Notes under the pieces: generated by a model
Databases searched by the model: none
What the model was told of the DNA's origin: nothing
Seen by the model: the letters and a program-made list of their open reading frames with translations, nothing else
Source of the DNA: Myxococcota bacterium
GTDB lineage: Bacteria; Myxococcota_A; Bradymonadia; Bradymonadales; GCA-2716585
Length of the DNA: 35,461 nucleotides
Direction of reading: 5' to 3'
Assembly: GCA_963169075.1 (NCBI GenBank)
Contig: CAUJGC010000464.1
Coordinates: 1 to 35,461 of the forward strand
Shown here: piece after piece, positions 1 to 26,156 of the stretch
Layout of the letters: each line of letters begins with the position of its first letter
How positions within the stretch are numbered: position 1 is the stretch's first letter
Program-made: the position numbers and the translations under genes

Positions 1-95
1 ACGACGGAACCACCGCAGCAGAGCGCCTCTTTGGCCACAAACCACTAGACTTATTCAGCTTTATGCTTGAAAGACTGGCCCCGCCCAGGCCGCCA

Positions 96-3286: not shown

Positions 3287-3300
3287 CGCAGATCTCCGGG

Positions 3301-4905
3301 CTATTTGCTCACCCATGCATCGTCTTCGCGGACGTAGAGAACCGGCTGGCCAGCCGCAGCGGCGCGGTTGACGAGCAGGGAGCCGTTGGGAGCGTGGGTG
3401 ATGTGGTCATCAGGGACGGAGGCCGGAGCCTGCTTGACGACGTAGAGTGCGACGGCCTCCTTCTCGCCGGAGTCCTTGCCCATGACGCCAGCGGCGAGGG
3501 TGTTGGGGATGCGGCCATTGGAGTCGTCGACGCTGTAGTCGAAGTGGTTGTCGGTGATGAAGCCGGTCAAGGCGACCCGATCCAGGTTGTAGGTCCAGCC
3601 CTTGAGTCCTGAGGTCGCGGTGGTGACCTCCGCATCGACCTGGGCCAGCGTGTTGGCGATCAGGATTTGAGATTGGATTGCGTTGTTGTAGCCGCCGAGG
3701 CTCATCGAGGTGCGGAAGCGAGACAGGATGTTCTCAGCGGCGAGGTAGACGCGGCGCGTGGCGGGCGGCGTGGTGTTGTCGAGGGTGGTGTTGCTGTTGC
3801 CGGTGTTGAGGGCGAGGCCGGTGTTGGTCGGGTCGGTGTTCCCCGTATAGCGCATGACGTTGCCGACGACCATAAGTCGATCGCAATTTTCAGCGTAGAC
3901 CGCGGATTTTGCGGAGTTGGCCTGTGTGATGATGTTGTGGGTCACCAGGAGGTCTTGGCATGGCGTCTCAGCGGTGGCGCCGCTGGGTGCTTTGCCGTCA
4001 ATGAAGATGGCGTGGTTGCCAGTGGCTGCGATGTCGTTATTGGAGACGCGGCCCTGACGGCAGGAGGTCAGCGCGATGGGGTAGCCACTGGGCGCGGCGA
4101 TCCGGTTGAGATCGATGCCGAAGTTGGAGACGACGCTGAGGGAGACGTTGGCTGGAATGCGGTTGGCAGAGAGAAGGACGTCTGTGACGGGGTAGAAGCC
4201 GCCGCTGCCTGTACGAATGCCCGCGATCTCCAAATCGAGGTCAGCGTCGCTGAAGTTGTTGGCGAAGGTGATCGATGAGAGCGTGGTGGCCGAGGTAGAG
4301 GTTGATATGGCCGAGAGGGCTTTGTAGAGGGTGCCTGAGGCGAGGCGTGTGAAGGAGCAATCCAGTATGCGGACGTCATGGACGTTATCTCGCAAGCGGA
4401 TGGCCTGCTCTCCGAGTTGTTGGAAGTGGCAGGATTGAATATCGAGGTGTGAGGAGGACCCCGAGGAGGGGGCGGCTTGGATGCCGTAGCCACGGCTGGC
4501 GTTGTAGGTCGTCGTGAAGGCGACGCGTAGGACACGGACGCGGGTGCTTTGAGGGATGTTGAGTGCAACAGGGCGGTTGTTGGTGTCACCCTGGCCGCTC
4601 AGATCCAGCGTCATGTCCCGGATGAGCACATCCGTGGCAGCAGCGGCGGTCTCGATGAGTCGCGTGGTCGGGTTGCTCGTGTCAAGCTTGATGATGGTGG
4701 CGCCGAGACCATCTCCCATAAGCTGAACCCTGGATTTCAGGAGAAGTCCCCAGGCCGAGGGGCTATCTGCGCTGATAGTGTAGGTTCCCGCAGGTAGATA
4801 CACAACCCCGCCGCCTGCATTGTAGGCGTCCTCAATAGCAGTTTGGATGGCTTTGCGTTTATTGGGTTCGTTCGAATAGGGCGGCTGGCTGACATCGTAG
4901 ATCAT
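3301..4905 (-). CDS. Right-handed beta-helix / pectate-lyase-superfamily-like (tailspike-like) protein (534 aa), no evident signal peptide
   Basis: MIYDVSQPPYSNEPNKRKAIQTAIEDAYNAGGGVVYLPAGTYTIS start plus repeated beta-helix rungs. C-terminus ...NGSLLVNRAAAAGQPVLYVREDDAWVSK. GAGGAG ribosome-binding site just upstream of the ATG, and an in-frame TAG a few codons upstream excludes an N-terminal extension. Confidence 0.88.
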   Translation of the reverse strand: MIYDVSQPPYSNEPNKRKAIQTAIEDAYNAGGGVVYLPAGTYTISADSPSAWGLLLKSRVQLMGDGLGATIIKLDTSNPTTRLIETAAAATDVLIRDMTLDLSGQGDTNNRPVALNIPQSTRVRVLRVAFTTTYNASRGYGIQAAPSSGSSSHLDIQSCHFQQLGEQAIRLRDNVHDVRILDCSFTRLASGTLYKALSAISTSTSATTLSSITFANNFSDADLDLEIAGIRTGSGGFYPVTDVLLSANRIPANVSLSVVSNFGIDLNRIAAPSGYPIALTSCRQGRVSNNDIAATGNHAIFIDGKAPSGATAETPCQDLLVTHNIITQANSAKSAVYAENCDRLMVVGNVMRYTGNTDPTNTGLALNTGNSNTTLDNTTPPATRRVYLAAENILSRFRTSMSLGGYNNAIQSQILIANTLAQVDAEVTTATSGLKGWTYNLDRVALTGFITDNHFDYSVDDSNGRIPNTLAAGVMGKDSGEKEAVALYVVKQAPASVPDDHITHAPNGSLLVNRAAAAGQPVLYVREDDAWVSK

Positions 4906-9758: not shown

Positions 9759-11489
9759 ATGAGGACGATGGGGAGGCGTGCAGAGCGTTGGGTGCGTGCG
9801 GGGTGGGCGGCGCTCCTGGCGACGGGGCTCCTGGCGGGTTGCACCGAGGCGCGGGTGGACGAGGAGCAGCTCTCGGCGCTGGTCTTCACGCCGGAGGGGG
9901 CGCAGATCCCGGCGGTGAGCGGTCTGGAGACGGTGCGCCTGACGGCGATGGACTACTCGCGGCGCGAGGTGCTGGCGCAGGCGGAGTTCCCCTACGGCAG
10001 CGGCGGCGGGACGCTGGGCGGGGTGACCTTCGCGGAGCGCCTCCAGCTGGTGGTCGAGGGGCTGGACGCGCTGGGGAACCCGCTCCTGCAGGGGCGGAGC
10101 ATGCCGTTCCGCTACCTGGCGGGGGATCGCGTGGACGCGCCGCGGATCTTCCTCTCGACGCCGGACACCTTCTCAGAGGCGACCGCGCTGACGGGGGAGG
10201 GCGACGCGCTCCAGCCGCAGGAGGTGCGCTTCCAGGTGGCGTCGCCGCGCGCGGGTCACGCGGCGGTGCGCCTCAAGAACGGGCTGGTGCTGGTGGTGGG
10301 CGGCGCGCAGCTCACGACGGAGGCGGCGGAGGGGCTGGCGCTCCCCGGGCTGCCGGAGGGGTTGGAGGTAGACAGCGCCGAGGACGACGGGGGCGTGCTG
10401 GACACCGCCGAGCTCTACGATCCGGCGACGGGGCTCTTCTTCCCGATGCCGTCGATGCGCTTCCCGCGCGCCTTCCACACGGCGACGCTGCTGGATGACG
10501 GCCGCGTGCTGGTGGCGGGCGGCGTGACGGTGCTGGACGGGGACGACGGGCCGGAGTTGGCGACGCTGGCCTCCGCCGAGATCTTCGACCCCTCCCAGCC
10601 GAGCGCGCCCTGGACGCTGGTGGCGGGCTCAGGCGAGGGGTTGAGCGACGGGCGGGCGTGGCACACGGCGACGCTGCGGCGCTCGGACGGGAGCGTGGTG
10701 CTGATCGGGGGGCGCCAGATCGACGACGGCGCGGTGGAGGTGCTGGGGACAGCGGAGATCTTCAACCCGCAGCGCGACCGCTTCGAGCTGAACCCCGGCG
10801 ACGAGCCCATCGAGATGGAGACGCCCCGCGCGGGTCACACGGCAGAGCTGGTGTTGAGCGGCCGCGGCGCAGGCAAGACGATCCTGGTGCTGGGCGGCGA
10901 AGGGGAGGGCGGCCCGCTGCGGAGCACGGAGGTGCTGACGGTGGTGGGCGATGGGGCGCGCTCGGCCTTCAGCGAGGGCCCCGCGATGCGCTCGGCGCGG
11001 GTGGGGCACGCGAGCCGCACGGCGTCGGGCAACGGCGGTCGCCAGATCGTCGTGGTGGGGGGCCGCGGCGCCGACGGCGCGCTGGTGGAGGAGATCGAGG
11101 CGGTGGACGTGACGGTGGGGGAGTTCACCTCGCAGGGCCGCCTGAGCGAGCTTCGGGACGCGCCGAGCCTGATCGAGCTGCCACAGACGCAGGACATGGT
11201 GGTGCTGGGCGGCCTCGGCGAGGACGGGCGCCCGGTGCGAGCCGCCGAGCGCCTGGCCTTCAACCCGGTGGACGGGAGCTATACGCGGGTGCCTGTGGAC
11301 GGGCCGATGGTCCGCGCCCGCCACCTGCACACGGCGACGCTGATGGACAACGGCCTGGTGCTGGTGACGGGCGGCGTGAGCGGCGCGTCGCTGACAAGCC
11401 AGGACGACGTGGAGTTCTTCAACGCCGACGACGGTGAGCCGGGCTTCAGCTATGAGGCCTCCGGTGGGGAGAGCGGCTTCTCGGAGTAG
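9759..11489 (+). CDS. Kelch-repeat lipoprotein (576 aa)
   Basis: Lipobox LLATGLLAGC. Repeated Kelch-type units RAGHAAVRLKNGLVLVVGG, RAFHTATLLDDGRVLVAGG, RAWHTATLRRSDGSVVLIGG, RARHLHTATLMDNGLVLVTGG. Confidence 0.9.
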   Translation: MRTMGRRAERWVRAGWAALLATGLLAGCTEARVDEEQLSALVFTPEGAQIPAVSGLETVRLTAMDYSRREVLAQAEFPYGSGGGTLGGVTFAERLQLVVEGLDALGNPLLQGRSMPFRYLAGDRVDAPRIFLSTPDTFSEATALTGEGDALQPQEVRFQVASPRAGHAAVRLKNGLVLVVGGAQLTTEAAEGLALPGLPEGLEVDSAEDDGGVLDTAELYDPATGLFFPMPSMRFPRAFHTATLLDDGRVLVAGGVTVLDGDDGPELATLASAEIFDPSQPSAPWTLVAGSGEGLSDGRAWHTATLRRSDGSVVLIGGRQIDDGAVEVLGTAEIFNPQRDRFELNPGDEPIEMETPRAGHTAELVLSGRGAGKTILVLGGEGEGGPLRSTEVLTVVGDGARSAFSEGPAMRSARVGHASRTASGNGGRQIVVVGGRGADGALVEEIEAVDVTVGEFTSQGRLSELRDAPSLIELPQTQDMVVLGGLGEDGRPVRAAERLAFNPVDGSYTRVPVDGPMVRARHLHTATLMDNGLVLVTGGVSGASLTSQDDVEFFNADDGEPGFSYEASGGESGFSE

Positions 11490-11528: not shown

Positions 11529-11648
11529 GCCGTGGTACGGATCTTGATGCTTCGCGGAGGTGAGATCAGGGACCGCGTCGTGTGTTGGTTTGAAGCACGG
11601 CGTCAACGACGACCTCGGCGGGTGCGCCCGCAGAGCGAGGCAGGAAGC

Positions 11649-14600
11649 ATGGTCAAGGACGCGCGCGCTTGGTTGGGTCGCTCGGGGTGGATGCCGGGTC
11701 GGCTCTCGTTCGGGGTGGTGCTGGCGGCGCTGGCCGCGCTGGCCTCCTTCGTGTGGGCGGCGCCTGCGGAGGCGGTGGTGTCGGGGGTGCGCCACACGCG
11801 CTTCCAGACCTTCCAGGTCTTCGGGGACGCGGTGAGCGTGGGGAACACGCTCATGGGCAACACGGTGAGCCAGCCCGCGGTCAACTCGTTCCTCTTGAGC
11901 GAGAGCCAGGCGATCCTCCAGGGGCTGCCCAGCAACGCCGGGATCGAGGGCGCCTACCTCTTCTGGTCGGGCTCCACCGAGGGGCGCCCGGATCGCGACG
12001 CCCGCCTGGTCCTCCCCAACGGCGTCACGCGGACCGTCACCGCCGACACCTGCTTCACCTCGCCTGTCTTCGGGGGCTTCTTCTACTGCCGCGCCGATGT
12101 GACGGCGCTCCTGGCAGCCAACCCCGCCAGCGCCGGCAACTACAACGGAACCGTCCGGGTGGGGGACGTGCAGGCGCGCCCCGGGACGCTGGACGAGAAC
12201 GGCGAGTGCATCGAGCCGAACCTCTGCCAGGCCTTCTACGCGGCGTGGTCGCTGGCGGTGGTCTACACCGATCCCAACGCGACGACCCTGCGCGACGTGA
12301 CAATTTTTGATGGATTCCGTCAGTTTGACGAGGATTTTTCATCAGGAATCGACACATTTGCCATCGACGGCTTCGAGGTCGCCAACCCGCCCCAGGGGCG
12401 CTTCGCCTACTTCGCCATGGAGGGGGATGAGCTGCTCGGGGTGCCGCCGCAGGACGTGGACTCGTCCCCGGATGTGCGCTGCTCGGACTGCTTTGACTTC
12501 ATGGACTTCAACGGCACCCGGCTGGTGGATGGGCGCGGGTGGCCGAACAACCTCTTCAACTCGACCACCTCGCTCGGGGTGGATCTGGACTCGTTTGACG
12601 TGTCGGGGCTGGTGCGGTCCGGGGATCGCTCGGTGACGATCACGGTGGGGAGCGGGGACGGGAACCCGACCTTCCAGGGGGGCGGCGGCGAGTCCTTCTT
12701 CCTGGGCTATGTGCTCCTGAGCCTGAACCGCCTGGCGCCCAACTTCCGCACCAACGCCACCGTGAAGACGGTGGACCCCAGCGAGGCCGGCCCCGGCGAG
12801 ACCGTCTTCTTCTCGATCACGGTGACCAACGGCGGGAGCCTGGACGCGACCAACGTCGTGCTGCGGGACGCGCTGAACTCGAATTTGATCTATGTGCCCG
12901 GCTCGACCCGCGTGGATGGGGCGGCGGTGGCGGACGGCCCCGGCGGCGCGGCGCCCTTCGCGTCGGGCCTGAGCCTGGGGACGATCCCCTTCAACGGCGA
13001 CAACGACCGCCGGGTGACCTTCCGGGCGACGGTGCGGGCCGGGGTCGCAGGCGGCACGGTGATCCCCAACGTGGCGACGATCACGGCGCGGGAGCTGCCC
13101 GAGCCGACGCCCACCAACGAGGCCACGATCCGGGTGGCGGCGCCGACCCTGGGGCAGCCCACCAAGTCCTTCCAGGACGCCAACGGCGGGAGCATCGAGC
13201 CCGGCGACATCATCAACTACACCATCTTCATCCCGAACGACTCGGGCCGCACGGCCTCGGCGGTGACCTTCGTGGACGATATGCCGGGCTTTGTGCAGCT
13301 CCGCTCGGTGGCGCCGACCCCCTACACCGACCGCTCCGACCCCAACGGGGGCCTCAACGGCACGGGGCGGGTGGAGGTGCGCGACATCTTGATACCTGCC
13401 AACATCAGCGGCGTCTTTATCAGCTATAGTGTCCAGATCGACAGCGTCGAGGAGCTGATCGCGCAGGGGGTGGACCCGGCGTCCATCGACGGGCTGACGA
13501 TCGTGAACCAGGGCCGGGTGTCGGCGCCCTTCCTGAGCGCGGCGCTCCTGACGGACAACCCGGCGACGGCGGCGACGCCGGACCCGACCTCGTTCCGCAT
13601 CACCAGCAGCATCAACTTCCAGAACCCGGACACCTTCAAGCGGGTGGAGGATCTGAACGGCGGGTCGCTGGTGCCCGGGGACCGCCTCCGCTACACGATC
13701 TCGCTGCGGAACACGGGGAACCGCGCGACCTCCATCAACCTGAGCGACGATCTGCCGCCCTTCGTGGAGGGCTTCACGCTGGAGACGCCGCTGGCGGAGG
13801 CGACGTTCGCCCCGGCGCCCGCAGGCGCGAACGCGACAGGTCGCCTGACGGTGACCGGGCTGGAGGTGGCTGGGGGCAGCCGGGTGGAGCTGCGCTTCAC
13901 CGTGACGGTGCGGGACGACGCGCCGGGGGGCTCGCGGATCGGGAACGTGGCGCAGCTCCAGGTGCCTGCGGCGCCGACCCAGAGCCGCGCGCTGGCCTCG
14001 ACGGTGCTGACGGTGACCTCGGGGCCGGACCTCAGCGGAGCCACCAAGGAGGTCGTGGGCGCGCCGCCGGGCGGCTTCCAGCCCGGCGATGAGGTGACGT
14101 GGCGCCTGGCGGTGACCAACACCGGGAACCGGGCGGCGACGAACGTGCGCCTGGACGACGACGTGGCGCTGAACCTGACCTTTGTGTCGGCCACCGACGG
14201 CGGGGCCTTCAACGCGGCGCAGCGCCGGGTGCGCTGGACGCTGGGGGACATCGCCGCAGGCGAGACGCGCCAGGTGACGGTGGTGACGCGGATCAACTCG
14301 CCGCTGGCCAACGGGACGCGCATCCGCAACCAGGGCGTCCTCTTCGCGGACAACCTCGCCAGCGGGGTCGTGACCGACGACCCGAGCACGGCGGCGGTGG
14401 ACGACTTCACGATCATCACGGTGCGCTCGGAGCCCTCGTTTGTCGGCACGACCAAGACGGTCGAGGATCTGAACGGCGGCGAGTTCGAGCCCGGCGACCG
14501 CGTGCGCTACCGCATCGAGGTCCGCAACACCGGCCGCGAGGTGGCGACCGGGGTGGCCCTGAGCGATCCCGTCGACGGCGTGCGCCTGAGCGTGGAGTCG

Positions 14601-17600
14601 GTGGGGCAGGGCGGGCAGCTGGGCGGCGGGGTGATCCAGTGGACCCCGGCGACGACGCCGGCGCTGGCCTCGGTGGCGCCCGGCTCCTCGGTGGTGCTGG
14701 ACTTCACGGCGCGGCTGGCGGGGACGCTGACCAACGGCGAGGAGGTGCGGAACCAGGGCTTCATCGTCTCGGCGCAGACGCCGGAGCCGGTGGGGACCGA
14801 CGATCCGGTGACGCCGGAGGTGGGGGACCCGACCTCGATCTTCATCCGGGCGACCCCGGCGCTGGCAGGCGCCATCAAGTCGGTGGTGGACGAGAACCAG
14901 GGGCAGCCCCAGCCGGGCGATGTGCTCACCTGGACGATCCAGCTCCCCAACAGCGGCACCGGCCCGGCTCGCGGCGTGGTGGTGAGCGACGTGGTGAGCG
15001 CGTCGCTGACCGACGTGGCGCCGCTGGACGGCGGCGTCTTCGACGCCGCGACCCGCACGATCACCTGGCGGCTCGCCGGGCCGATCCCGCCGGGCGAGCA
15101 GGCCGAGGTGCGCTTCCGCTCGACCATCGCGCCCGGTACCGCCGATGGTACCGCCGTCTCCAACCAGGCCCGGGTCACCACGGTGGATCTCCCCGGTGAG
15201 ACGATCCTGAGCGACGACCCCAACACGGCGGCGGTGGATGATCCCACGACGCTGGTGGTCCGCGCCCAGCCCGACTTTGTTCTGAGCACCAAGTTCGTCC
15301 GCAACGAGGACAACCCCGGCGCGGGCTTCCAGCCCGGCGACACGATCAGCTACGAGCTCACCGTGCGCAACACCGGCTCCCAGGCCGGGACCGCGGTCCA
15401 GGTCATCGACGATCTCCCCGAGGGCCTGGAGGCCATCGAGGTGCAGGACGGCGGGACCCTCACCGGGCGCCAGGCCCGGTGGTCGCTGGGGACGCTGGCC
15501 CCCGGCGCCGAGGAGACGCTCCTGATCCGCGCCCGGATCGTGAACCCCATCGACGACGGCACCCAGATCGCCAACCAGGCCTTCATCTCCAGCGCCGAGG
15601 TGCCCACCCCGGTCCCCACCGACAACCCCAACACCGCCGAGGAGGACGACCCGACGGTCTTCGCCGTCTCCTCCCGCCCGGTCTTCCTGGGCAGCCGCAA
15701 GCTCTTCACCGATCTGGACGCCGCCCCCGGCGAGCCGGTCAAGCCCGGCCACCTCCTGCGCTGGACCATCGACGTGATCAACAGCGGCACCTCCTCGGCG
15801 CGGGACGTCGTGGTGAGCGACGTGGTGGACGCGAACCTGGTGGACGTGACGCCGGAGCTGGGCACCTTCGACGCGGCCTCCCGCACGATCCGCTGGAGCG
15901 CCGCCGAGATCCCCGCCCTCGCCAATGTGGCCCCCGACGGCCAGCCCATCCAGGTGGCCTTCACCGCGCGGGTGCGCCTGCCGCTGGACAACGGCACCCT
16001 CATCGCCAACCAGGCCCGCATCGCCTCCGCCGAGATCCCCGAGGGCGAGCTGAGCGACGACCCCCGCACCGCCGACTTCCCCGACGCCACCACCGCGCAG
16101 GTCGTCTCGGCGGCGGACTTCACCGCCGCCACCAAGGCCGTCTCGCCCCCCGCCGCAGGCGTCTACCGCCCCGGCGACGAGGTCACCTACACCCTCTCCT
16201 TCACCAACAACGGCGACGCGGTGGCCTCCAACGTGGTCGTGACCGACGTCCTCGACCCCAGCCTCCTCTTCGTCTCGGCCACCGACGGCGGCCGCTTCGC
16301 GGCGCCCCAGGTGACCTGGGATCGCCAGAGCACCCCCGCCCTCGCCAGCGTCGCCCCCGGTCAGACCGTCGTCCTCCGCCTCACCGCCGCCCTCTCCTCG
16401 CCGCTCACCAACGGCCTGGAGGTCTTCAACCAGGCGCGGATCACCGCAGAGGGCTTCGTGAACCCCGTGGTCACCGACGATCCCTCCACCGACGCGCTGG
16501 ATGATCCCACGCTCCTGACGGTGACCTCGGCGCCGACGCTCACGGCCAGCACCAAGGCCGTCCGCGATCTGGACGGCGACGGCTTCTTTGAGCCGGGGGA
16601 CGTGGTGGAGTATACGATCCGCGTCCAGAACGACGGCAGCGACGAGGCGCGCAGCACCGTCGTGACGGATCAGGTGGACGTGGCCTCGCTGGAGGAGGTG
16701 ACGCCGCTGGACGGCGGGCGCCTCCAGGGGAATACGATCACCTGGACCTCCGCGGGCACGCCGGGGCTGGCCTCGGTGCGCCCCGGCGCCGCCGGGGTCG
16801 TCTCGGTCCGCTTCCGCGCCACGCTCCAGCGCGGCCTCCTGGACGGCGCCCGGATCCTCAACCAGGCGTCCCTGAGCGCCGAGGGCGCCGAGCCCACCGT
16901 CACCGACGATCCCGCCACCCCCGAGGTGGACGACCCCACCGCCCTCCGCGTCACCGCCGCGCCCCGCTTCACCCGCTTCACCAAGCGCGTCGAGGATCTC
17001 AACGGCGGCCAGATCGAGGGCGGCGACCGCCTCCGCTACACCCTGACCGCGACCAACGACGGCACCCAGCCCGGCCAGCTCGTCCAGATCAACGATCCCC
17101 TCGATCCCAACCTGGAGGCGGTGGCGGCCCAAGACGGCGGCGCCGTGGTCGGCCGCGCCGTCCAGTGGTCCCTGGGCACCGTCGCGCCCGGCGAGCAGCG
17201 CGAGGTGCGCTTCGAGGCCACCGTCCGCGGCGGCGTCGAGGACGGCACCGCGATCGTCAACCAGGCGGGCCTGACGGCCACCAGCGTCCCCCAGGTCCTC
17301 AGCGATGACCCCTCCACCCCCGCCGAGGGCGACGCCACGGTGGTCGTGGTCAACGCCGAGCCCGACTTCTCGGCCCTCACGATGGGGGTCCGGGTGGTGG
17401 ACGGCGGCGCGGTCGCTCCGGGCGCCCTCATCGAGTACGAGCTGATCGTCACCAACACCGGCTCCGGCCCGGGCCGGGACGTGATCCTCCGCGACCCCAT
17501 CGACGCGGCGCTGCTGGAGGACATCCAGCCCAGCGACAACGGCCGCGTCGAGGCCGGGGTGGTGACGTGGACCGCGGCGGAGCTGCCGATCCTGGCGGCC

Positions 17601-20600
17601 TTCCCCACCACCGAGACGCGGCGCCTGACGATCCGGGCCCGCATCCGCGAGGGGCTGCCCAACGGCGTCGTCATCCTGAACCAGGTCAACCTCATCGCCC
17701 AGGACACGCCGGAGGTGCTCAGCGACGATCCGACCACGGCGGCGCTGGACGATCCCACCCGCATCACGCTGGCCTATCCCGCCATCGCGGCCTTCGACAA
17801 GGAGGTCCGCGACGTGGACGGCGGGCTGGCCGAGGCCGGCGATCAGGTGGAGTACACCCTCACCCTCCGCAACGACACCGGCGTCCCCCTCAACAACGCC
17901 GTCGTCGAGGACACCCTGGACGCTGCGCTCACCGAGGTGCAGGTCGAGGGCGGCCGCTTCGACGAGGGGACGCGCCTCGTGCGCTTCGACGCCGGGACCA
18001 ACGGCGCGCTGGGGGCGGTGGCGCCCGGCGGCCAGGTGGCCCTGCGCTTCACCGCGCGCATCGCCCAGGACGCGCAGCCGGGGCTCCAGATCGCCAACCA
18101 GGCGCGGGCCTCGTCGCCGCAGGTGGCCGGGCTGGAGCGCCGCTCCGACGACCCCAACACGGCGGCGGTGCAGGACCCCACCGTGATCACGGTCCAGGCG
18201 CCGGCCCTGGCGGATCTGAACAACACGACGAAGCTCGTCATCGACGAGAACGGCGGCCTGGTCGAGCCCGGTGACCGCCTGACCTGGGAGATCACGGTGC
18301 GCAACGAGGGGCGCGTCGCCGCCACCCGCGTCGCGCTCCTGGATCCGCTCCCTCGCCTGACCCGCTTCATCCCGGGGAGCCTCTTCGTGAACGGGCAGGC
18401 CGCTCCCGGCGCCGAGACGCGCGGCCAGCTCCTCCAGCTCCCCCTGGAGCTGCCCGATCTGGCCCCCGGCGAGTCCGCCGTGGTGCGCTTCTCCACCGAG
18501 GTGTCCGAGGAGGCGCCCACCGGGGCGGTCCTGACCAACCAGGCCATCGTCACGGCCCAGAGCGGCGGAGACGTGGGCGGCGCCCAGGCCACCTTCCAGG
18601 TGGTGACCGACGACCCGACGACCTCGGCGGTGGATGACGCGACGCAGGCGGTGGTGGGCGCGGGGCCGAACGTCTCGCAGCTCAGCAAGATCGCGCGGAT
18701 CGTGGATCAGAACGGCAACGACCGCCTGGATGTCGGGGAGCTGCTGGAGTACGAGATCCGCATCCCCAACCGCGGCAACCTCCCCACCGAGGGGGCGGTC
18801 CTCACGGACGTCCTGCCGATCAACACGACCTACATGTCCGGGACCCTGAGCATCAACGGGGTCGCCCAGACCGACGCCCCCGGCGACGACGTGCTCTCGG
18901 TGGAGGGCAGCGTGCTGACGGCCCGCCTGGGGAGCATCGATCCGGGGACGGCGCCGGTGATCCGCTTCCGCGTCCGCACCGAGCGCGGCCCGGAGGTCAT
19001 CAACCAGGGCGAGCTCTCCGGCGACAACTTCCCCCCCGAGAAGACCGACGCGGACGGCAGCGAGGCCAACGGCGACCAGCCCACGGTGACCCCGGTGGGG
19101 AGCCGCGCGGGCTCGCTGGTGGTGGGCAAGGTGCTCTCGGACGTCAACGGCGGCCGGGTCGCCCCAGGGGACACGCTCCTCTACACCATCACCATCACCA
19201 ACGCCTCCGACGCGCTCATCGAGGACGCCACGCTGGTGGATGAGCTGCCCGCCGAGGTGGACTTCGTGGATCTGGCGCTCGCGCCGGAGGGCACCCTCAC
19301 GGGTCGCCGGACCCTGGAGCTTGCGGGCTTCACGGTGCCGCCCCGCGAGAGCCGGACGGTGGTGATCCGGACGCAGCTCCAGGCGGAGGTCCAGGAGGGC
19401 ACCCGGAGCTGCAACCAGGCGAGCGTCCGCGCGCTGGCGGGGACCCTCAACGTCAGCTCCGATCCGGCCTGCTTCACGGTGGGCGGCGTCCTGGGCGCGG
19501 GCCTGGTGAGCGGCCTGATCTTTGAGGACGCCAACGCCAACGGCGTCTTCGACGAGGCGGGAGATCTGACCTTCCCCAACTTCCTGGTGCGGGTCTTCCG
19601 CGCGGGGGCGTCCTCGGCGCTGGCGGAGGTGGTGACGGGCGACGACGGCGGCTACAACCTGCCGACGCTCACGGAGGGGCGCTACACGCTGCGCTGGTTC
19701 ACCCAGCCCACCGGCGGCGCGCCCGTGCGCTTCGGTCAGATCGAGGGGGTCAGCGTCGGTGACGGCGAGGTGAGCCAGCGCAACCTGCGCATCGACCCGT
19801 CGGGGCGCGTCTACAACGCCCAGAGCGGCGAGGTGATCAGCGGGGCGGAGGTGCAGCTCTTCTACGCGGACGAGGAGCCCGATACGGCGCTGGCGGGTAA
19901 GCTGGTGGCGCCGCAGGATCTCCCCGAGGGGCAGCAGGGCCAGCGCACCGTGGACGGCCTCTACCGCTTCGACGTGGTGCCGGGGCACGTCTACCGCATC
20001 GCGGTGGTGGCCCCGAGCCAGGCCTTCGTCTTCCCCAGCGTCCGCATCCCGGCGGAGCCGCGGATCTGGCGGAGCAGCGAGGACCCGCTCCTGGTGGTCG
20101 AGAGCGCGACGCCGGATCTGAGCGGCCCCACGACGTGGTTCACGACCTTCAACATCACCCCGGACCTGCCCCCCGAGGGCGTCCGCAACAACCACATCCC
20201 CCTGGACCCCCTGAGCGGCTTGATCCAGGTGGACAAGTTCGCCAGCGTCCGCACGGCGACGATCGGTGACGTGGTGACCTACACGGTGCGCGTGACCAAC
20301 CGCTCGTCCCGTGACTTTATCTATGATACGTCCAATAACGTGGGCGGTATCTATATCCAGGATCTCCTGCCGCGCGGCTTCGACTATGTGAAGGGCAGCG
20401 CGCGCCTGCGCCGCATCCGGGGCGGCCAGCCGGTCGCCAGCCAGGAGGCGACCCGCGCGGGAGCGCTCTCCTCGACCTTCGGCCTCCCGGTAGGCGACCT
20501 GAAGATCACGGGCCCGCGGCCGCTGGAGCTGCTGGCAGGCGAGGTCATCGAGCTGCGATATCAACTGCTGGTTGGTATCGATACGAAGCCGGGTGATGAC

Positions 20601-23600
20601 TATCTCAACCGCGCCAGCGTGGTGCTGGCTGATGGCCGGGTGCCGATCTCCAACGAGGGCCTGGCGCGGGTGCGCGTGACCTACGACCCGATCTTCGATC
20701 AGGGCGTGGTGCTGGGGCGGGTCTTCTGTGACGACAACGCCAACGGCGAGCTGGACGCCGAGGAGCGCGGCGTGCACCGGGCCCGGGTCTACCTCGACAA
20801 CGGCTGGTACGCGGTGACGGACGCCAACGGGCTCTTCCACTTCCAGGCGGTGAACCCGGGGAACCACCTCATCAAGCTGGACGTCAACACGCTGGCACCG
20901 GGCGCGGTCCTCACGACCGACGTGCGGCGCGTCTTCTACACCACGCGGGGTCTGCCGACGAAGGTGGACTTCGGCGCGACCTGCCCGACCCACTGGGTGG
21001 ACGCGGTGGACGTGAACGAGAGCGCGGCGACCCAGGAGGCGCGGGCCGCCGAGCGTCGCAAGAACTTCATCCAGGTGGACGGCAGCGCCGCCACCTACGA
21101 GGTCAAGGTAGACAACGAGCCGCTGCCGCTGGCGAAGGCCCGGCTGTGGATCTCGCGCGGCGAGGCGGCGGCGGAGCCCGCCGCTGAGGTTCCCCACGTC
21201 GCGGTGCGCGGCGAGAAGCTGGAGGCCCCCCTGGTCTTCAACCCCCGCGTGGAGGGCCTGGAGGGGATGCGCGGCTGGGCGATCCGCGTCTGGCGCGCCG
21301 ACGCCGCGGATAAGGTGCTCGGGACGGCGCGGCTCCTCACCGGGAGCGGGCCGCTGCCTGCGGCGCTCCCCTGGGAGGGCCAGGACGGCGCCGCCAAGGT
21401 GCCCGTCCTGAGCGGCCCGGTGGGCTATCTGGCGGAGGTGGTGGTCTGGGACGCCGACGGCAACGCGGCGACCTCGGCGCCTGCCGCCTTCGTGGTGGAC
21501 GGCCTGGGCGGCGGCGCGCTGCTGGACGAGACGATCAGCGGCGACGTCTTCGTCGCGAAGAAGGCCGAGCTGACCCGCGAGCTGGAGACGCGCCTGGGCG
21601 CCCTGGGCGAGAAGCTCCGCGGCAAGAAGGCCAAGATCAAGATCACCGTCCACACCGCCGACGATGGCCGCCCCGAGCAGGCCCTCGCCTTGAGCCGCGA
21701 GCGCGGCGACGCGGTCAAGCGCCTGCTGGTGGCGCGCTACGGCGTGGCGGCGGCCGACGTCGAGGTGGAGGGTCTGGGCGACACGCGCCCCCTGGTGCCG
21801 AACATCGGCAACCGCGAGCGCCAGATCAACCGCCGCCTCATCCTCCAGGCCACCGACCTCAGCCCCGCCACCGTCGCGGGGGAGGCGCCCTCCCTCCCGG
21901 CGCCCACGCCGGGCGTCGCGCTGAACAACGAGCGCGTCGAGGTCGGCGCCGACGGCGCCTTCTCGCGCCTGCTGAAGAAGCCCGCCGACGGCGTGCTCAT
22001 CCTCGTGGTGCGCGGCCAGGACGGCGGGGCGGCGACGCGGGTGCTCCGCCTCCAGGGCGAGGCGGGCGCCAGCGCGAACCCGGCCCTCCTGCCGATGCCG
22101 GTCATCCCGGTGCGCGGCGACCTCAAGAGCGGGACGCTGAACCTCGGCACGAGCACCACGACGGTGGGCCTCCTCCAGGTGGCCCTCAAGCCGGGCGCGG
22201 AGGTCTACAGCCTCGATCAAGGCGTCCTCCGCCCGCCCGCGGAGTTCACCGTCTTGGCCCCGGCGGGGCTGGAGGTGGCGAGCTACCAGCTGGAGATCCT
22301 GGACGCCGACGGCAAGGTCATCCACGCCGACACCCAGAGCGGCGGCGCGCCGACGCGCGTGCGCTGGACGGGCGCCGCAGGGCAGGGCGCCTTCCTGGCG
22401 CCGGGCTGGTATCGCGCGCAGCTCACCCTCACCACCGCAGACGGGCAGCTCGGCGCCTCGGCGCCCGCCCTCTTCCGGGTCCAGCTCGCCGCGCCCGAGC
22501 CCAAGCCCAAGCCTCGCCGCGGGGCCCCTCCCGAGATCATCCCCGCTGCGCCGACCCTGACCTTCGCCCCGGCGGCCTTCGTCAACGGCCGCCCGGCGGC
22601 GCTCGCGCCCGACGGCAGCTTCAGCGTCGAGGCCGAGGGCTACTCCGGGCAGCGCCTCGTGGTGGAGATCCGGCGCGCCGACGGCGCCCGGGCCATCCAG
22701 TACGTCGAGGTCCCGGCGCTCTACCCGCCGCCGACCTCCGCGACGCCTCCGGCGACGCCTCCGGCGCCCGCGGAGGAGGCCGCGCCCACCGACGCTGCCC
22801 CCGAGGCCGCGCCTGCGGGCGACGGCGCCAGCCTCCCGGCGGCGCCGGTCGGCCCCCTGGGCAGCGCGGGCGGCGTCCTCTACGGGGCGGACAGCCCCGT
22901 GCGGGTGCCTGCGGTGGCCTCGTCGCCTGCGGCGCAGCCGCAGGTCCGCCTCCTGCTGGCGCAGGAGAGCGGGGCCGCCGCAGACGCGCCCGTCTCCTCG
23001 GGCGCTGGCCCGAAGGAGGCCGGCGCGCTGGAGTCGCTGGGCGGCGCCGAGCTGGAGGCCGCGCTGGCCTCCGGCGATGACGCCGAGCGTCAGCGCCTGC
23101 TGGCGGCCACGAAGGCCGCCAACCTCAAGGTCCAGCTCCCGCCGCAGGGGGTGGAGCTGAAGAGCCGCGAGCTGGTGGTGCTGGGCACCACCGACCCCAC
23201 CAACGCGATCACCATCAACGGCGCCACCGTCGAGAACCTGGAGGGCACCTTCCGCCACGTCCTCACCCTGCCCCTGGGCGAGAGCGAGGTGGTGGTGGAG
23301 GCGCGAGACGCCGACGGCAACACGGGCGTCATCCGCTGGCCGGTGAAGGTGGCGGAGCGGGCGATGTTCCTCATGGCGTTCGCGGATACGGCGGTCGGCG
23401 CCGAGGGCGCCGAGCTGGACAACCTCACCGCGGCCAACTCCACCCAGGCGGGCGGCGCCTTCCTCTACGGCGAGGCCAAGGTCTACACGAAGGGCTACAT
23501 GTCCGGGCGTCAGTTTCTGGACAACTTCTTCTCCGAGTATCGCTACACCGCCTACTTCAACTCCGCCCGTCAGGGCGAGCTGGAGCAGTTCCTGACGGAC

Positions 23601-26156
23601 ACGATCAAGGCGGATCAGTACTACCCGATCTTCGGAGACAGCGCCGAGTCAACCAATGATATCAACGCGCGCGGCAAGCTCTATATCTTGGTCGAGGCGG
23701 ACGCCTCGCGTCTGATCGTCGGCAACGCGCGCCCCAACATCCAGGGCGTCCACTTCTTCCGCTACGACCGCCCCTTCTACGGCGCGATGCTGGACTTCAA
23801 CAAGGTCCTCGGCCAGCACTACAAGACCGAGGTGAAGGCCTTTGTGTCGGACGACGATCTGGAGGTGGCCCACACGTGGAACTTCCTCCAGGGCACGGGC
23901 GGCTCGCTCTACTACCTCCGCAACCGGGACGTGGTGGAGGGCAGCGAGAAGGTGGCGGTGGTCATCCGGGATGAGGCCAGCGGCATCGAGCTGGCGCGGG
24001 TGCCGATGGCGCGTAACGTGGATTACACGGTGGACTACCCCTCCGGGCGCCTCCTCTTCAAGTCGCCGGTGCCGAGCGTGGCCCGCGGCGAGTTCCTGGC
24101 GACCCGCGTCGCCACGACCCGCCAGGTGCTCGACGGCAACCCGGTCATCGTCGAGGTGTCCTACGACTACGAGGTCCTCGCGGGCGATCCCACCGGGACC
24201 ACCTTCGGCGGCCAGGTCCGCGAGACGCTCTTCGACACGGTGAGCGTCGGCGCGGGCTACGTCGAGGAGGGCCGCGGCCAGGGCGGCGCCCCGGCCTACC
24301 GTCTCTGGTCGGTCGAGGCCGGGGCCAAGTACACCGAGCGGACCCGCGTCGACGTGGAGTACACGGCGAGCGAGTCGTTCGACGTGGCGAGCTTCTTCTC
24401 GGCAGACGGCGGCTTGACCTTCGACACCTCCTCGCGCCGCGACGGGAGCACCGCCTCAGGCGAGGCCTGGGCGGTGAAGGGGAAGGTGGAGCTTGGGGAT
24501 CTCTTCTATGATGAAAAAATGGAAGAATTCCTTAGCATTTCGTCATATTTCCAAACGACGACGCCCAACTTCTACAGCAACGGCACCATCCTGGAGCAGG
24601 GGCAGGACAAGTTTGGCGGCGAGGCGATGTGGCGGATCACGGCCTCCAACCGGCTGCGGCTGCGCCACGACGGGGTGATCTCGACGGTGGACGACCTCCA
24701 GAGCCCCAACCCGGAGGCGACGCGCCTGCTGGAGCGCCAGATCACGACGCTCCAGCACGTCTACCAGGGCGAGTCGCTCTCGCTGACCAGCGAGTACAAC
24801 CGCACCTTCTTCGACGACAACACCCTCGCGGGCGGGGCGAGCAGCCACACCCTCGGGGAGCGGGTGACGTACCGCTTCACGCCGAACCTCTCAGGGTTCA
24901 TCGGGCAGCAGTTCGTGGTGGAGGGCGACGAGCGCCTCTACAACGAGCTCTCCGATCGTCTCCAGACCGACCTGGGCCTCTCCTACCGATTCTTTGAGGA
25001 CTGGTCGGCGGAGGTCATCGAGTCGCTGCGCTGGAACGGCGAGAACGCCACCCAGCTGGGCCTGACCACGGCGCTGACCGAGAACACCAACCTCTACCTC
25101 CGCGAGCGGATCCAGACCCGCGAGGACAACAGCGGCGTCAGCACCACCAGCGTGGTGGGCGGCGAGCAGCGCTTCGCGGGCTCCTCCGGGCGCCTCTACT
25201 CCGAGTATCAGGTGGACACCGGCATGATCGGGGACCGGAGCCGCGCCGTCATCGGCATCGGCAAGGGCTTCAAGCTCATGGACGGCCTGACGCTGGACGT
25301 GGCCTACGAGCACAGCCAGACCGTCGCGGCGTCCACCGTGGGCGAGCAGAGCCGCGACGTGGGGAGCATCGGGTACGAGCTCCTGCTGCCGCGCAGCCTC
25401 AAGTTCAGCCAGAAGCTGGAGCTGCGCTACGACGAGGGCGACGCCCGCTTCCCGCAGAACAACCCCTGCTTCGGGGACGGCGTCTACGCCAACCCGGACT
25501 TCTGCCGCGACAACTTCGCGGGGGGCCAGGACAAGCTCCAGCTGGTGACCACCAACAACCTCGTCCTGACCTTCTGGGAGGATCACAACCTCCTGGCGAA
25601 GTTCGACTACGCCACCACCGAGAACCTCACCTTCAACCTGGAGGAGAGCAGCCACCTGCTCCTGAGCTTCGGCTACGCGCTGCGCCCGATCCACTGGGAT
25701 CACCTCAACGTCCTCCTCAAGTACTCCTATGTGGAGGATCTGCGCCCCGTGAGCCTCACCGGCCTCCGCGAGGAGCGCCAGGCGGCCCACGTCGTCAGCC
25801 TGGTCCCGATCATCGAGCTGCCCTTCAGGCTCCAGCTCGTCGAGAAGCTCGCCTGGAAGCGCGCCGCGGTGCGCTACGACGACCTCCCCGAGGTCGAGTC
25901 CGACACCTGGCTCTGGATCAACCGCCTCAACTACCACCTGACGGACACCTTCGACGCCAGCCTGGAGTATCGCTTCCTGACCAACTCGCTCTCCCAGGAC
26001 GTCAAGCACGGCGCCCTGCTTGAGCTGAGCTACATCCTGGCCGAGTACGCTCGCCTGGGCATCGGCTACAACTTCACCCGCTTCAGCGACGACGAGCTGA
26101 GCGATCTCAACCGCGACGTCGGAGGCTTCTTCTTCCGCGTCCAGGGCACCTATTGA
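11649..26156 (+). CDS. Giant multidomain surface/outer-membrane protein (about 4,835 aa): signal peptide, N-terminal domain, ~17 DUF11-like repeats, SdrD/B-like modules, OmpA-C-like domain, Ig-like modules, C-terminal beta-barrel
   Basis: One uninterrupted frame. The called ORF starts at 11532, but Met at 11649 has an upstream AGGAAG and gives the signal peptide MVKDARAWLGRSGWMPGRLSFGVVLAALAALASFVWAAPAEA. Recurrent (T)KxVxDxNGGxxxPGDxxxYxIxxxNxG units. OmpA-like LSRERGDAVKRLLVARYGVAAADVEVEGLGDTRPLVPNIGNRERQINRRL. C-terminal aromatic-rich strands ending GGFFFRVQGTY. Confidence 0.92.
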   Translation: MVKDARAWLGRSGWMPGRLSFGVVLAALAALASFVWAAPAEAVVSGVRHTRFQTFQVFGDAVSVGNTLMGNTVSQPAVNSFLLSESQAILQGLPSNAGIEGAYLFWSGSTEGRPDRDARLVLPNGVTRTVTADTCFTSPVFGGFFYCRADVTALLAANPASAGNYNGTVRVGDVQARPGTLDENGECIEPNLCQAFYAAWSLAVVYTDPNATTLRDVTIFDGFRQFDEDFSSGIDTFAIDGFEVANPPQGRFAYFAMEGDELLGVPPQDVDSSPDVRCSDCFDFMDFNGTRLVDGRGWPNNLFNSTTSLGVDLDSFDVSGLVRSGDRSVTITVGSGDGNPTFQGGGGESFFLGYVLLSLNRLAPNFRTNATVKTVDPSEAGPGETVFFSITVTNGGSLDATNVVLRDALNSNLIYVPGSTRVDGAAVADGPGGAAPFASGLSLGTIPFNGDNDRRVTFRATVRAGVAGGTVIPNVATITARELPEPTPTNEATIRVAAPTLGQPTKSFQDANGGSIEPGDIINYTIFIPNDSGRTASAVTFVDDMPGFVQLRSVAPTPYTDRSDPNGGLNGTGRVEVRDILIPANISGVFISYSVQIDSVEELIAQGVDPASIDGLTIVNQGRVSAPFLSAALLTDNPATAATPDPTSFRITSSINFQNPDTFKRVEDLNGGSLVPGDRLRYTISLRNTGNRATSINLSDDLPPFVEGFTLETPLAEATFAPAPAGANATGRLTVTGLEVAGGSRVELRFTVTVRDDAPGGSRIGNVAQLQVPAAPTQSRALASTVLTVTSGPDLSGATKEVVGAPPGGFQPGDEVTWRLAVTNTGNRAATNVRLDDDVALNLTFVSATDGGAFNAAQRRVRWTLGDIAAGETRQVTVVTRINSPLANGTRIRNQGVLFADNLASGVVTDDPSTAAVDDFTIITVRSEPSFVGTTKTVEDLNGGEFEPGDRVRYRIEVRNTGREVATGVALSDPVDGVRLSVESVGQGGQLGGGVIQWTPATTPALASVAPGSSVVLDFTARLAGTLTNGEEVRNQGFIVSAQTPEPVGTDDPVTPEVGDPTSIFIRATPALAGAIKSVVDENQGQPQPGDVLTWTIQLPNSGTGPARGVVVSDVVSASLTDVAPLDGGVFDAATRTITWRLAGPIPPGEQAEVRFRSTIAPGTADGTAVSNQARVTTVDLPGETILSDDPNTAAVDDPTTLVVRAQPDFVLSTKFVRNEDNPGAGFQPGDTISYELTVRNTGSQAGTAVQVIDDLPEGLEAIEVQDGGTLTGRQARWSLGTLAPGAEETLLIRARIVNPIDDGTQIANQAFISSAEVPTPVPTDNPNTAEEDDPTVFAVSSRPVFLGSRKLFTDLDAAPGEPVKPGHLLRWTIDVINSGTSSARDVVVSDVVDANLVDVTPELGTFDAASRTIRWSAAEIPALANVAPDGQPIQVAFTARVRLPLDNGTLIANQARIASAEIPEGELSDDPRTADFPDATTAQVVSAADFTAATKAVSPPAAGVYRPGDEVTYTLSFTNNGDAVASNVVVTDVLDPSLLFVSATDGGRFAAPQVTWDRQSTPALASVAPGQTVVLRLTAALSSPLTNGLEVFNQARITAEGFVNPVVTDDPSTDALDDPTLLTVTSAPTLTASTKAVRDLDGDGFFEPGDVVEYTIRVQNDGSDEARSTVVTDQVDVASLEEVTPLDGGRLQGNTITWTSAGTPGLASVRPGAAGVVSVRFRATLQRGLLDGARILNQASLSAEGAEPTVTDDPATPEVDDPTALRVTAAPRFTRFTKRVEDLNGGQIEGGDRLRYTLTATNDGTQPGQLVQINDPLDPNLEAVAAQDGGAVVGRAVQWSLGTVAPGEQREVRFEATVRGGVEDGTAIVNQAGLTATSVPQVLSDDPSTPAEGDATVVVVNAEPDFSALTMGVRVVDGGAVAPGALIEYELIVTNTGSGPGRDVILRDPIDAALLEDIQPSDNGRVEAGVVTWTAAELPILAAFPTTETRRLTIRARIREGLPNGVVILNQVNLIAQDTPEVLSDDPTTAALDDPTRITLAYPAIAAFDKEVRDVDGGLAEAGDQVEYTLTLRNDTGVPLNNAVVEDTLDAALTEVQVEGGRFDEGTRLVRFDAGTNGALGAVAPGGQVALRFTARIAQDAQPGLQIANQARASSPQVAGLERRSDDPNTAAVQDPTVITVQAPALADLNNTTKLVIDENGGLVEPGDRLTWEITVRNEGRVAATRVALLDPLPRLTRFIPGSLFVNGQAAPGAETRGQLLQLPLELPDLAPGESAVVRFSTEVSEEAPTGAVLTNQAIVTAQSGGDVGGAQATFQVVTDDPTTSAVDDATQAVVGAGPNVSQLSKIARIVDQNGNDRLDVGELLEYEIRIPNRGNLPTEGAVLTDVLPINTTYMSGTLSINGVAQTDAPGDDVLSVEGSVLTARLGSIDPGTAPVIRFRVRTERGPEVINQGELSGDNFPPEKTDADGSEANGDQPTVTPVGSRAGSLVVGKVLSDVNGGRVAPGDTLLYTITITNASDALIEDATLVDELPAEVDFVDLALAPEGTLTGRRTLELAGFTVPPRESRTVVIRTQLQAEVQEGTRSCNQASVRALAGTLNVSSDPACFTVGGVLGAGLVSGLIFEDANANGVFDEAGDLTFPNFLVRVFRAGASSALAEVVTGDDGGYNLPTLTEGRYTLRWFTQPTGGAPVRFGQIEGVSVGDGEVSQRNLRIDPSGRVYNAQSGEVISGAEVQLFYADEEPDTALAGKLVAPQDLPEGQQGQRTVDGLYRFDVVPGHVYRIAVVAPSQAFVFPSVRIPAEPRIWRSSEDPLLVVESATPDLSGPTTWFTTFNITPDLPPEGVRNNHIPLDPLSGLIQVDKFASVRTATIGDVVTYTVRVTNRSSRDFIYDTSNNVGGIYIQDLLPRGFDYVKGSARLRRIRGGQPVASQEATRAGALSSTFGLPVGDLKITGPRPLELLAGEVIELRYQLLVGIDTKPGDDYLNRASVVLADGRVPISNEGLARVRVTYDPIFDQGVVLGRVFCDDNANGELDAEERGVHRARVYLDNGWYAVTDANGLFHFQAVNPGNHLIKLDVNTLAPGAVLTTDVRRVFYTTRGLPTKVDFGATCPTHWVDAVDVNESAATQEARAAERRKNFIQVDGSAATYEVKVDNEPLPLAKARLWISRGEAAAEPAAEVPHVAVRGEKLEAPLVFNPRVEGLEGMRGWAIRVWRADAADKVLGTARLLTGSGPLPAALPWEGQDGAAKVPVLSGPVGYLAEVVVWDADGNAATSAPAAFVVDGLGGGALLDETISGDVFVAKKAELTRELETRLGALGEKLRGKKAKIKITVHTADDGRPEQALALSRERGDAVKRLLVARYGVAAADVEVEGLGDTRPLVPNIGNRERQINRRLILQATDLSPATVAGEAPSLPAPTPGVALNNERVEVGADGAFSRLLKKPADGVLILVVRGQDGGAATRVLRLQGEAGASANPALLPMPVIPVRGDLKSGTLNLGTSTTTVGLLQVALKPGAEVYSLDQGVLRPPAEFTVLAPAGLEVASYQLEILDADGKVIHADTQSGGAPTRVRWTGAAGQGAFLAPGWYRAQLTLTTADGQLGASAPALFRVQLAAPEPKPKPRRGAPPEIIPAAPTLTFAPAAFVNGRPAALAPDGSFSVEAEGYSGQRLVVEIRRADGARAIQYVEVPALYPPPTSATPPATPPAPAEEAAPTDAAPEAAPAGDGASLPAAPVGPLGSAGGVLYGADSPVRVPAVASSPAAQPQVRLLLAQESGAAADAPVSSGAGPKEAGALESLGGAELEAALASGDDAERQRLLAATKAANLKVQLPPQGVELKSRELVVLGTTDPTNAITINGATVENLEGTFRHVLTLPLGESEVVVEARDADGNTGVIRWPVKVAERAMFLMAFADTAVGAEGAELDNLTAANSTQAGGAFLYGEAKVYTKGYMSGRQFLDNFFSEYRYTAYFNSARQGELEQFLTDTIKADQYYPIFGDSAESTNDINARGKLYILVEADASRLIVGNARPNIQGVHFFRYDRPFYGAMLDFNKVLGQHYKTEVKAFVSDDDLEVAHTWNFLQGTGGSLYYLRNRDVVEGSEKVAVVIRDEASGIELARVPMARNVDYTVDYPSGRLLFKSPVPSVARGEFLATRVATTRQVLDGNPVIVEVSYDYEVLAGDPTGTTFGGQVRETLFDTVSVGAGYVEEGRGQGGAPAYRLWSVEAGAKYTERTRVDVEYTASESFDVASFFSADGGLTFDTSSRRDGSTASGEAWAVKGKVELGDLFYDEKMEEFLSISSYFQTTTPNFYSNGTILEQGQDKFGGEAMWRITASNRLRLRHDGVISTVDDLQSPNPEATRLLERQITTLQHVYQGESLSLTSEYNRTFFDDNTLAGGASSHTLGERVTYRFTPNLSGFIGQQFVVEGDERLYNELSDRLQTDLGLSYRFFEDWSAEVIESLRWNGENATQLGLTTALTENTNLYLRERIQTREDNSGVSTTSVVGGEQRFAGSSGRLYSEYQVDTGMIGDRSRAVIGIGKGFKLMDGLTLDVAYEHSQTVAASTVGEQSRDVGSIGYELLLPRSLKFSQKLELRYDEGDARFPQNNPCFGDGVYANPDFCRDNFAGGQDKLQLVTTNNLVLTFWEDHNLLAKFDYATTENLTFNLEESSHLLLSFGYALRPIHWDHLNVLLKYSYVEDLRPVSLTGLREERQAAHVVSLVPIIELPFRLQLVEKLAWKRAAVRYDDLPEVESDTWLWINRLNYHLTDTFDASLEYRFLTNSLSQDVKHGALLELSYILAEYARLGIGYNFTRFSDDELSDLNRDVGGFFFRVQGTY
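12748..20690 (+). repeat. Tandem array of about 17 DUF11-like domains (about 120-140 aa each) within the giant protein
   Basis: Unit starts read by eye: NATVKTVDPSE, QPTKSFQDANGG, TFKRVEDLNGG, GATKEVVGAPPGG, GTTKTVEDLNGG, GAIKSVVDENQG, LSTKFVRNEDN, GSRKLFTDLD, AATKAVSPPAAG, ASTKAVRDLDGDG, RFTKRVEDLNGG, ALTMGVRVVDGG, AFDKEVRDVDGG, NTTKLVIDENGG, QLSKIARIVDQNG, VVGKVLSDVNGG, VDKFASVRTATIGD. An SdrD/B-like module interrupts near 19500-19750. Boundaries are approximate. Confidence 0.85.
20695..20930 (+). other. SdrD/B-like (prealbumin-like) module within the giant protein
   Basis: GVVLGRVFCDDNANGELDAEERGVHRARVYLDNGWYAVTDANGLFHFQAVNPGNHLIKLD. A related unit, SGLIFEDANANGVFDEAGDL...VVTGDDGGYNLPTLTEGRYTLRWF, lies near 19500. 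Confidence 0.75.
21510..21860 (+). other. OmpA C-terminal-like (peptidoglycan-binding) domain inside the giant protein
   Basis: LTRELETRLGALGEKLRGKKAKIKITVHTADDGRPEQALALSRERGDAVKRLLVARYGVAAADVEVEGLGDTRPLVPNIGNRERQINRRLIL follows the OmpA-C pattern (LSxxRAxxVxxxLxxxGV...GxGxxxP...N...xxNRRV). Confidence 0.8.
23355..26156 (+). other. C-terminal outer-membrane beta-barrel region of the giant protein
   Basis: AMFLMAFADTAVG start; QYYPIFGDSAESTNDINARGKLYILVEADASRLIVGNARPNIQGVHFFRYDRPFYGAMLDF; then many amphipathic Tyr/Phe-rich strands; terminal residues GGFFFRVQGTY resemble an outer-membrane beta-signal. Confidence 0.75.

Follow-up and report, generated by a model that had tools for sequence, protein, structure and literature searches.

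An uninterrupted frame of 4,835 codons in a myxococcotan contig encodes a giant, probably surface-displayed protein. Judging from the gene organization of its relatives, it is the single-chain form of a system that many bacteria encode in two genes, one for a DUF11 stalk and the other for an OmpA/barrel protein. With a probability of roughly 0.6, we take the product to be an isopeptide-locked fibrillar adhesin that is displayed outside the cell by a very large barrel, either its own or that of a partner. DUF11 stalk adhesins are by now an established finding in Gram-negative bacteria, and their long Ig-like fibres have to cross and be held in the outer membrane. The barrel belongs to an unclassified family that is tied to DUF11 stalks by gene adjacency, a 4-base overlap and repeated fusion, which makes it a candidate anchor and exporter, and it may be a means of displaying such fibres.

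Architecture of the giant protein

The window (the whole stretch of DNA that was analysed, 35,461 nucleotides) had previously been read from its sequence alone as carrying one uninterrupted 14.5-kb frame of about 4,835 residues. This frame was recovered in full: it is open from 11523 and begins with an ATG, an in-frame GTG at 11532 being an alternative start (Table 1). The parts described in that sequence-only reading, namely a signal peptide, an N-terminal domain, DUF11 repeats, SdrD_B-like and OmpA-like segments, Ig-like modules and a barrel, were found in the same order. The most hydrophobic stretch of the entire protein spans residues 19-37, ahead of the AAPAEA motif, and by inspection residues 1-42 appear to constitute a signal peptide. 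Pfam matches to SdrD_B were located at about residues 2620-2690 and 3024-3079, and the Ig-like matches comprise a FlgD_ig module (3543-3598) and a Glucodextran_B module (3826-3894).

Table 1 Features of the giant gene and its product in the window
Feature	Residues	Position	Strand	Basis
Whole giant gene, 4,835 aa and stop (ATG at 11649)	1-4835	11649..26156	+	Open reading frame; single-frame orthologues
Signal peptide region (core 19-37, ...AAPAEA)	1-42	11649..11774	+	Hydropathy, sequence
N-terminal domain	40-365	11766..12743	+	All-beta, six Cys
Stalk, 16 tandem DUF11/CLIPPER modules	375-2610	12771..19478	+	Pfam, own profile
SdrD_B-like conserved junction region, including 17th DUF11 (20244-20666)	2605-3154	19461..21110	+	
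OmpA-like domain	3296-3398	21534..21842	+	Pfam, solved OmpA/Pal homologues
Ig-like modules and Pro/Ala-rich linker	3400-3906	21846..23366	+	Pfam, AlphaFold2
C-terminal outer-membrane barrel domain, 929 aa, GTY end	3907-4835	23367..26153	+	

Other Myxococcota possess single-frame orthologues of 4,075-5,146 aa, in which the N-terminal domain, DUF11 stalk, SdrD_B-like junction, OmpA-like domain, Ig-like modules and barrel follow each other as they do here. Relatives from the same family, with barrels about 60% identical, are likewise encoded without interruption, the longest frame measuring 4,921 aa.

Opposite the giant gene lies an antisense frame of 3,638 aa (12342-23258, minus strand). We rejected it as a gene and regard it as a codon-bias shadow, since the sense frame never uses TTA or CTA, uses TCA only 6 times and has a GC3 of 95%. 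Immediately upstream of the giant gene, at 9759-11489 on the plus strand, a Kelch-repeat (beta-propeller) protein of 576 aa is encoded. Pectate-lyase-like beta-helix and FG-GAP-repeat proteins are encoded near both contig ends (96-4905 and 32929-35454, both on the minus strand), which makes this a contig with many secreted or surface proteins. Once overlapping shadow frames had been removed, the conserved neighbours beyond the stalk/barrel pair were only lineage-level and mostly housekeeping genes.

The DUF11 stalk and the N-terminal domain

Behind the signal peptide, Pfam detected DUF11 in 17 stretches (E 9e-158), with the tandem modules above the curated cut-off; the protein also scored 150.9 bits against the NCBIfam model TIGR04226. 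A profile built from the protein itself resolved the approximately 17 repeats of the sequence-only reading into 16 tandem modules, spaced about 139 residues apart, and one separate module at residues 2866-3006. The best PDB match of these modules was Grappling hook protein A of Aureispira (9flp, E 1.4e-8). DUF11 has been characterised as a domain that builds the stalks of extracellular fibrillar adhesins and contains Lys-Asn isopeptide bonds; one Gram-negative adhesin of this kind carries a C-terminal OmpA-like anchor (PMC12617251). In the DUF11 crystal structure, the isopeptide triad is formed by K715, D748 and N806 (PMC12617251). Our alignment of the 17 modules places Lys at the corresponding position in 14 and Asp and Asn in all, with a spacing approximately that of the crystallised triad, and the stalk modules are predicted to be isopeptide-locked.

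The length of the stalk differs widely among relatives, from about 1 to 48 DUF11 modules, and is fairly constant within the window's class (14-18 modules). The longest relative is a single fused frame of 11,777 aa, with about 48 DUF11 modules and the same barrel at its end, from the class sampled around a Halothiobacillaceae bacterium; it was obtained by joining L161 (4163-19999) to L160 (1-19493), both of G275:C2. A second giant frame, found at L056 (10506-19967, contig C320 of the same genome), encodes 3,154 aa with 19 Calx-beta modules and one DUF11, without a barrel.

The N-terminal domain, which would form the tip of the stalk, comprises about 330 residues, is all-beta and holds six Cys, while the stalk contains almost none. 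Pfam searches assigned it to no family and revealed no CshA-type domain. Its AlphaFold model, computed from four sequences, is weak (pLDDT 62.6) and gave scattered structural matches to beta-sandwich and jelly-roll folds; we therefore dropped a fold assignment, and no adhesive fold was recognised in the domain because of the weakness of this model. The same domain, followed by one DUF11, recurs in small Myxococcota proteins of 569-1,448 aa (L179-L194). MYXO-CTERM tails on these proteins score above the NCBIfam cut-off in L181, L185 and L186 and near it in L179, L192 and L193. MYXO-CTERM sorts proteins to the cell surface (PMC11980579). L179-L194 make up a Myxococcota surface-protein family with the N-terminal domain, one DUF11 and, in several members, a MYXO-CTERM tail.

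The OmpA-like domain

The segment following the junction region matches OmpA (PF00691) at residues 3301-3395 with an E-value of 2e-11 and 44.4 bits, above the cut-off of 27.2, and it also matches solved OmpA/Pal domains. Its OmpA fold is secure. In the OmpA of A. baumannii, D271 and R286 contact diaminopimelate (PMC6572160). In the giant protein, the contact Asp is replaced by Ala (HTADDG), while the contact Arg and the NRR motif are kept. The pseudomonadotan and Geobacter-type members that were checked keep the full GHTD...LSxxRA...NRR signature in their first OmpA copy, and the contact site is eroded in the fused forms of Myxococcota. Peptidoglycan binding is accordingly likely to be ancestral and is doubtful in the giant protein, to judge from these residues. 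Of the earlier proposal of a peptidoglycan-binding OmpA segment, the fold is thus borne out and the binding weakened.

The domain lies at the stalk/barrel junction in split loci as well, either at the end of the stalk gene (L107, E 2e-9) or at the start of the barrel gene (L109, E 6e-12). Two or three tandem OmpA-like domains precede the barrel in L162, L167, L172, L178 and L128. In some split loci, a degenerate OmpA-like remnant could be recognised by eye at the end of the stalk gene, so that the break between the genes may fall between two OmpA copies.

The C-terminal barrel

We predicted the structure of residues 3807-4835 with AlphaFold2 from a 59-sequence alignment (mean pLDDT 81.7, pTM 0.68). 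The model comprises one Ig domain followed by a long run of strands, with 34 beta strands of at least 7 residues between model residue 358 and its end and up to ten earlier ones. The C-terminal strand run is amphipathic, the last residue is aromatic and a barrel fold is predicted, all general hallmarks of outer-membrane barrels. On this model, the C-terminal 929 residues are a barrel-type outer-membrane protein, in agreement with the GTY-ending barrel expected from the sequence-only reading.

The last 929 residues match no Pfam or NCBIfam family, and a sequence search of the PDB returned no relative; weak Pfam matches to OMP_b-brl were seen among related barrels. Pfam and NCBIfam searches detected neither POTRA, TPS domain nor Omp85/TpsB barrel in the giant protein, nor a match to the autotransporter (Va/Vc) or intimin (Ve) barrel families, and the protein did not match the TraB model of NCBIfam (NF033763).

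The solved folds nearest to the model in Foldseek were mostly outer-membrane barrels, all at low TM-scores; ranked by E-value, SprA came first, followed by BtuB, LptD, SlpA and FimD. SprA is a 36-strand translocon (PMC10994853). When the SprA model TIGR04189 was run against the genome, the barrel of the giant protein was its sole candidate, with 8.3 bits (E 0.64) against a cut-off of 200. Given this score and a TM-score of 0.18, we rejected membership of the SprA family and take the resemblance as an analogy of size class only, not as homology.

Split and fused forms

A profile scan of genomes with the barrel alignment identified 311 relatives, reaching far beyond Myxococcota, among others in Variovorax, Methylophaga, Cycloclasticus, Halothiobacillaceae, Trichlorobacter and other Geobacteraceae, Alphaproteobacteria and Elusimicrobiota. 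When the class around a Geobacteraceae bacterium was sampled, 55 of 117 genomes had the barrel. At most non-myxococcotan loci, the product of the barrel gene measures only about 1,190-1,790 aa, and a separate gene directly upstream on the same strand encodes the DUF11 stalk and SdrD_B-like junction in about 2,200-3,000 aa. We collected 26 split loci with a DUF11/SdrD_B gene directly upstream of an OmpA/barrel gene, a pair that also occurs in cultured species (Variovorax, Trichlorobacter thiogenes). The two genes overlap by exactly 4 bases at 16 of the 25 measurable junctions, and at 21 of the 25 the spacing falls between -4 and +2. Both products start with a hydrophobic N-terminus, signal-peptide-like in the stalk product, and the last residue of the barrel product is mostly aromatic. 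Because elsewhere they are made by two overlapping genes, the fibre and the barrel probably work together.

Fused forms also occur outside Myxococcota, ranging from proteins of 2,000-2,300 aa with approximately one DUF11 module up to the 11,777-aa frame. In a maximum-likelihood tree of 92 barrels, 57 labelled fused and 26 split, six changes between the two states were needed, at least 4 of them forced by well-supported branches, compared with an average of 22.5 when the labels were shuffled. This repeated fusion and fission indicates, at the level of gene architecture, that stalk and barrel function as a single unit, with or without a covalent link between them.

Several further loci stood out. 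A distant second subfamily (L168, L169 and many others), with DUF11, OmpA and barrel in one chain of about 1,900-2,300 aa, occurs very often in the class around the Geobacteraceae genome; its match to the barrel profile is confined to the first third and the last part. In L135 (7397-12493), a stop or a change of frame interrupts a Desulfuromonadales barrel gene and leaves it in two frames. A record titled Klebsiella pneumoniae (L074, a metagenome bin) contains a Myxococcota-type fused gene that falls inside Myxococcota in the tree, and its label is probably wrong.

Neither the DUF11 stalk nor the concept of a DUF11 adhesin anchored by OmpA is new. In the literature that we searched, we found no description of a gene pair of DUF11 and OmpA/barrel proteins, nor of the barrel family or its recurrent fusion with the stalk, and to that extent these appear to be new.

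Location of the stalk and route of export

With the parts and their order confirmed, the topology problem raised by the sequence-only reading stands: a stalk that precedes both an OmpA-like domain and a barrel would have to be either outside the cell or in the periplasm. Its first option, a stalk threaded out in the manner of an autotransporter passenger, is favoured as regards the side of the membrane, and the route is one that we infer. We consider it probable that the stalk is displayed outward. A length of about 1 to 48 modules, in chains of up to 11,777 aa, is too variable and too great for a periplasmic spacer; DUF11 is a known stalk of adhesins, including one anchored by OmpA, and its triad is present here; and the N-terminal domain recurs in surface-sorted MYXO-CTERM proteins. 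A weaker line in the same direction is the erosion of the peptidoglycan site in the long fused forms of Myxococcota.

In the mechanism that we propose, the chain would enter the periplasm by way of its Sec signal peptide, and BAM would insert the C-terminal barrel, which ranks among the largest of that type, with the OmpA-like domain and the proximal Ig-like modules staying below. The isopeptide-locked DUF11 stalk would then move outward, N-terminal domain first, through or beside the barrel. The tip domain would be held tens of nanometres off the cell for adhesion or cell-cell contact, a function that we find reasonably likely. In split species, the barrel protein would be the anchor, and probably the exporter, of a separate stalk.

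That the barrel itself is the conduit for the stalk has, in our estimate, somewhat less than an even chance. The known passengers of type V systems are exported unfolded and are mostly beta-helical; the Ig-like modules of the stalk may lock before export, which counts against export through the barrel. By analogy, PlpD would speak against outward display of the N-terminal domain: in this protein, too, a periplasmic domain stands between the N-terminal domain and the barrel, and its N-terminal domain was shown to lie solely in the periplasm (PMC11116518). It is conceivable, if rather doubtful, that the barrel represents the first case of a system for export and display at the outer membrane that has not been described before. 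Occurring in two-gene and fused forms, such a system would pass folded or isopeptide-locked Ig-like stalks, hundreds to thousands of residues long, through a pore that one chain forms from about 36 or more strands, in the size class of SprA, without POTRA or T9SS motor.

Alternatively, the stalk could reach the outside by another route, such as type II secretion or BAM-assisted hairpin insertion, with the barrel as a mere anchor, as TraB is for TraA. TraA and TraB provide a precedent, being operon partners that form a 1:1 complex of a surface stalk adhesin with a barrel/OmpA protein, of which TraA leaves by type II secretion (PMC12045341, PMC11980579). DUF11 adhesins ending in an OmpA-like domain, moreover, have been described as complete with no barrel mentioned (PMC12617251). 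In the fused form, however, stalk and barrel are one covalent chain with the stalk upstream, and any separate exporter would need to let go of a chain that BAM is inserting at its other end. That fusion and fission have recurred at this one junction is also more in keeping with a pair of substrate and carrier. We therefore regard this route as unlikely.

The stalk might also stay periplasmic and serve as a very long spacer or scaffold, so that the protein would tie the outer membrane to either the wall or the inner membrane. The order of N-terminal domain, OmpA and barrel is what one would expect of an outer-membrane protein that extends into the periplasm, and besides PlpD, the Deinococcus SlpA barrels among the Foldseek matches offer a model in tethers of the SlpA/OmpM type; the fairly constant module number in the window's class would also suit such a role. 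Yet at about 4 nm per module, a stalk of 16 is already longer than a typical periplasm is wide (20-30 nm), and relatives extend to about 48. The use of the tip domain in surface-sorted proteins and the erosion of the peptidoglycan contact site precisely in the long fused Myxococcota forms also disagree with a periplasmic stalk, which we consider quite improbable. Finally, a merger of two genes by sequencing or assembly error, a concern already voiced in the sequence-only reading and suggested by the fragmented metagenome-assembled genome (627 contigs) and the separate stalk and barrel genes of other organisms, is ruled out for practical purposes by the unbroken frames of identical domain order in independent genomes, same-family members included.

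Comparison with known systems

Type Vb two-partner secretion and the type Vd protein PlpD resemble the system described here in pairing a long protein with an adjacent (Vb) or fused (Vd) barrel and in placing a periplasmic domain just before that barrel. Unlike them, the giant protein has no POTRA, TPS domain or Omp85 barrel by Pfam, and its passenger consists of Ig-like modules instead of a beta-helix or patatin; the N-terminal domain of PlpD, furthermore, is periplasmic. TraA/TraB of Myxococcus likewise combine a surface stalk protein with a barrel/OmpA partner, encoded together in Myxococcota, but TraB has its barrel first and OmpA last, the reverse of the giant protein, and TraA has a MYXO-CTERM anchor. 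SprA is comparable to the barrel in predicted size and gave the best Foldseek E-value, but the TM-score is low and the barrel remains below the family cut-off, with no other T9SS feature seen.

Intimin and invasin (type Ve) join a periplasmic peptidoglycan-type domain, a barrel and an Ig-like stalk in one chain. Their order is opposite to that of the giant protein, where the stalk is N-terminal and the barrel C-terminal, as the sequence-only reading had pointed out. Grappling hook protein A of Aureispira (9flp) is also a giant surface protein of a diderm with DUF11-like modules; no C-terminal barrel was reported for it in this comparison, and its export follows a different route, the T9SS. Acinetobacter silvestris B9T28_05395 (PMC12617251) shares with the giant protein an N-terminal domain, tandem DUF11 modules with Lys-Asp-Asn triads and an OmpA-like domain after the stalk. 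The N-terminal domains of the two differ, that of the giant protein showing no CshA-type domain by Pfam, and while B9T28_05395, at 2,129 aa, was described without a barrel, the giant protein adds one of 929 aa in the same chain.
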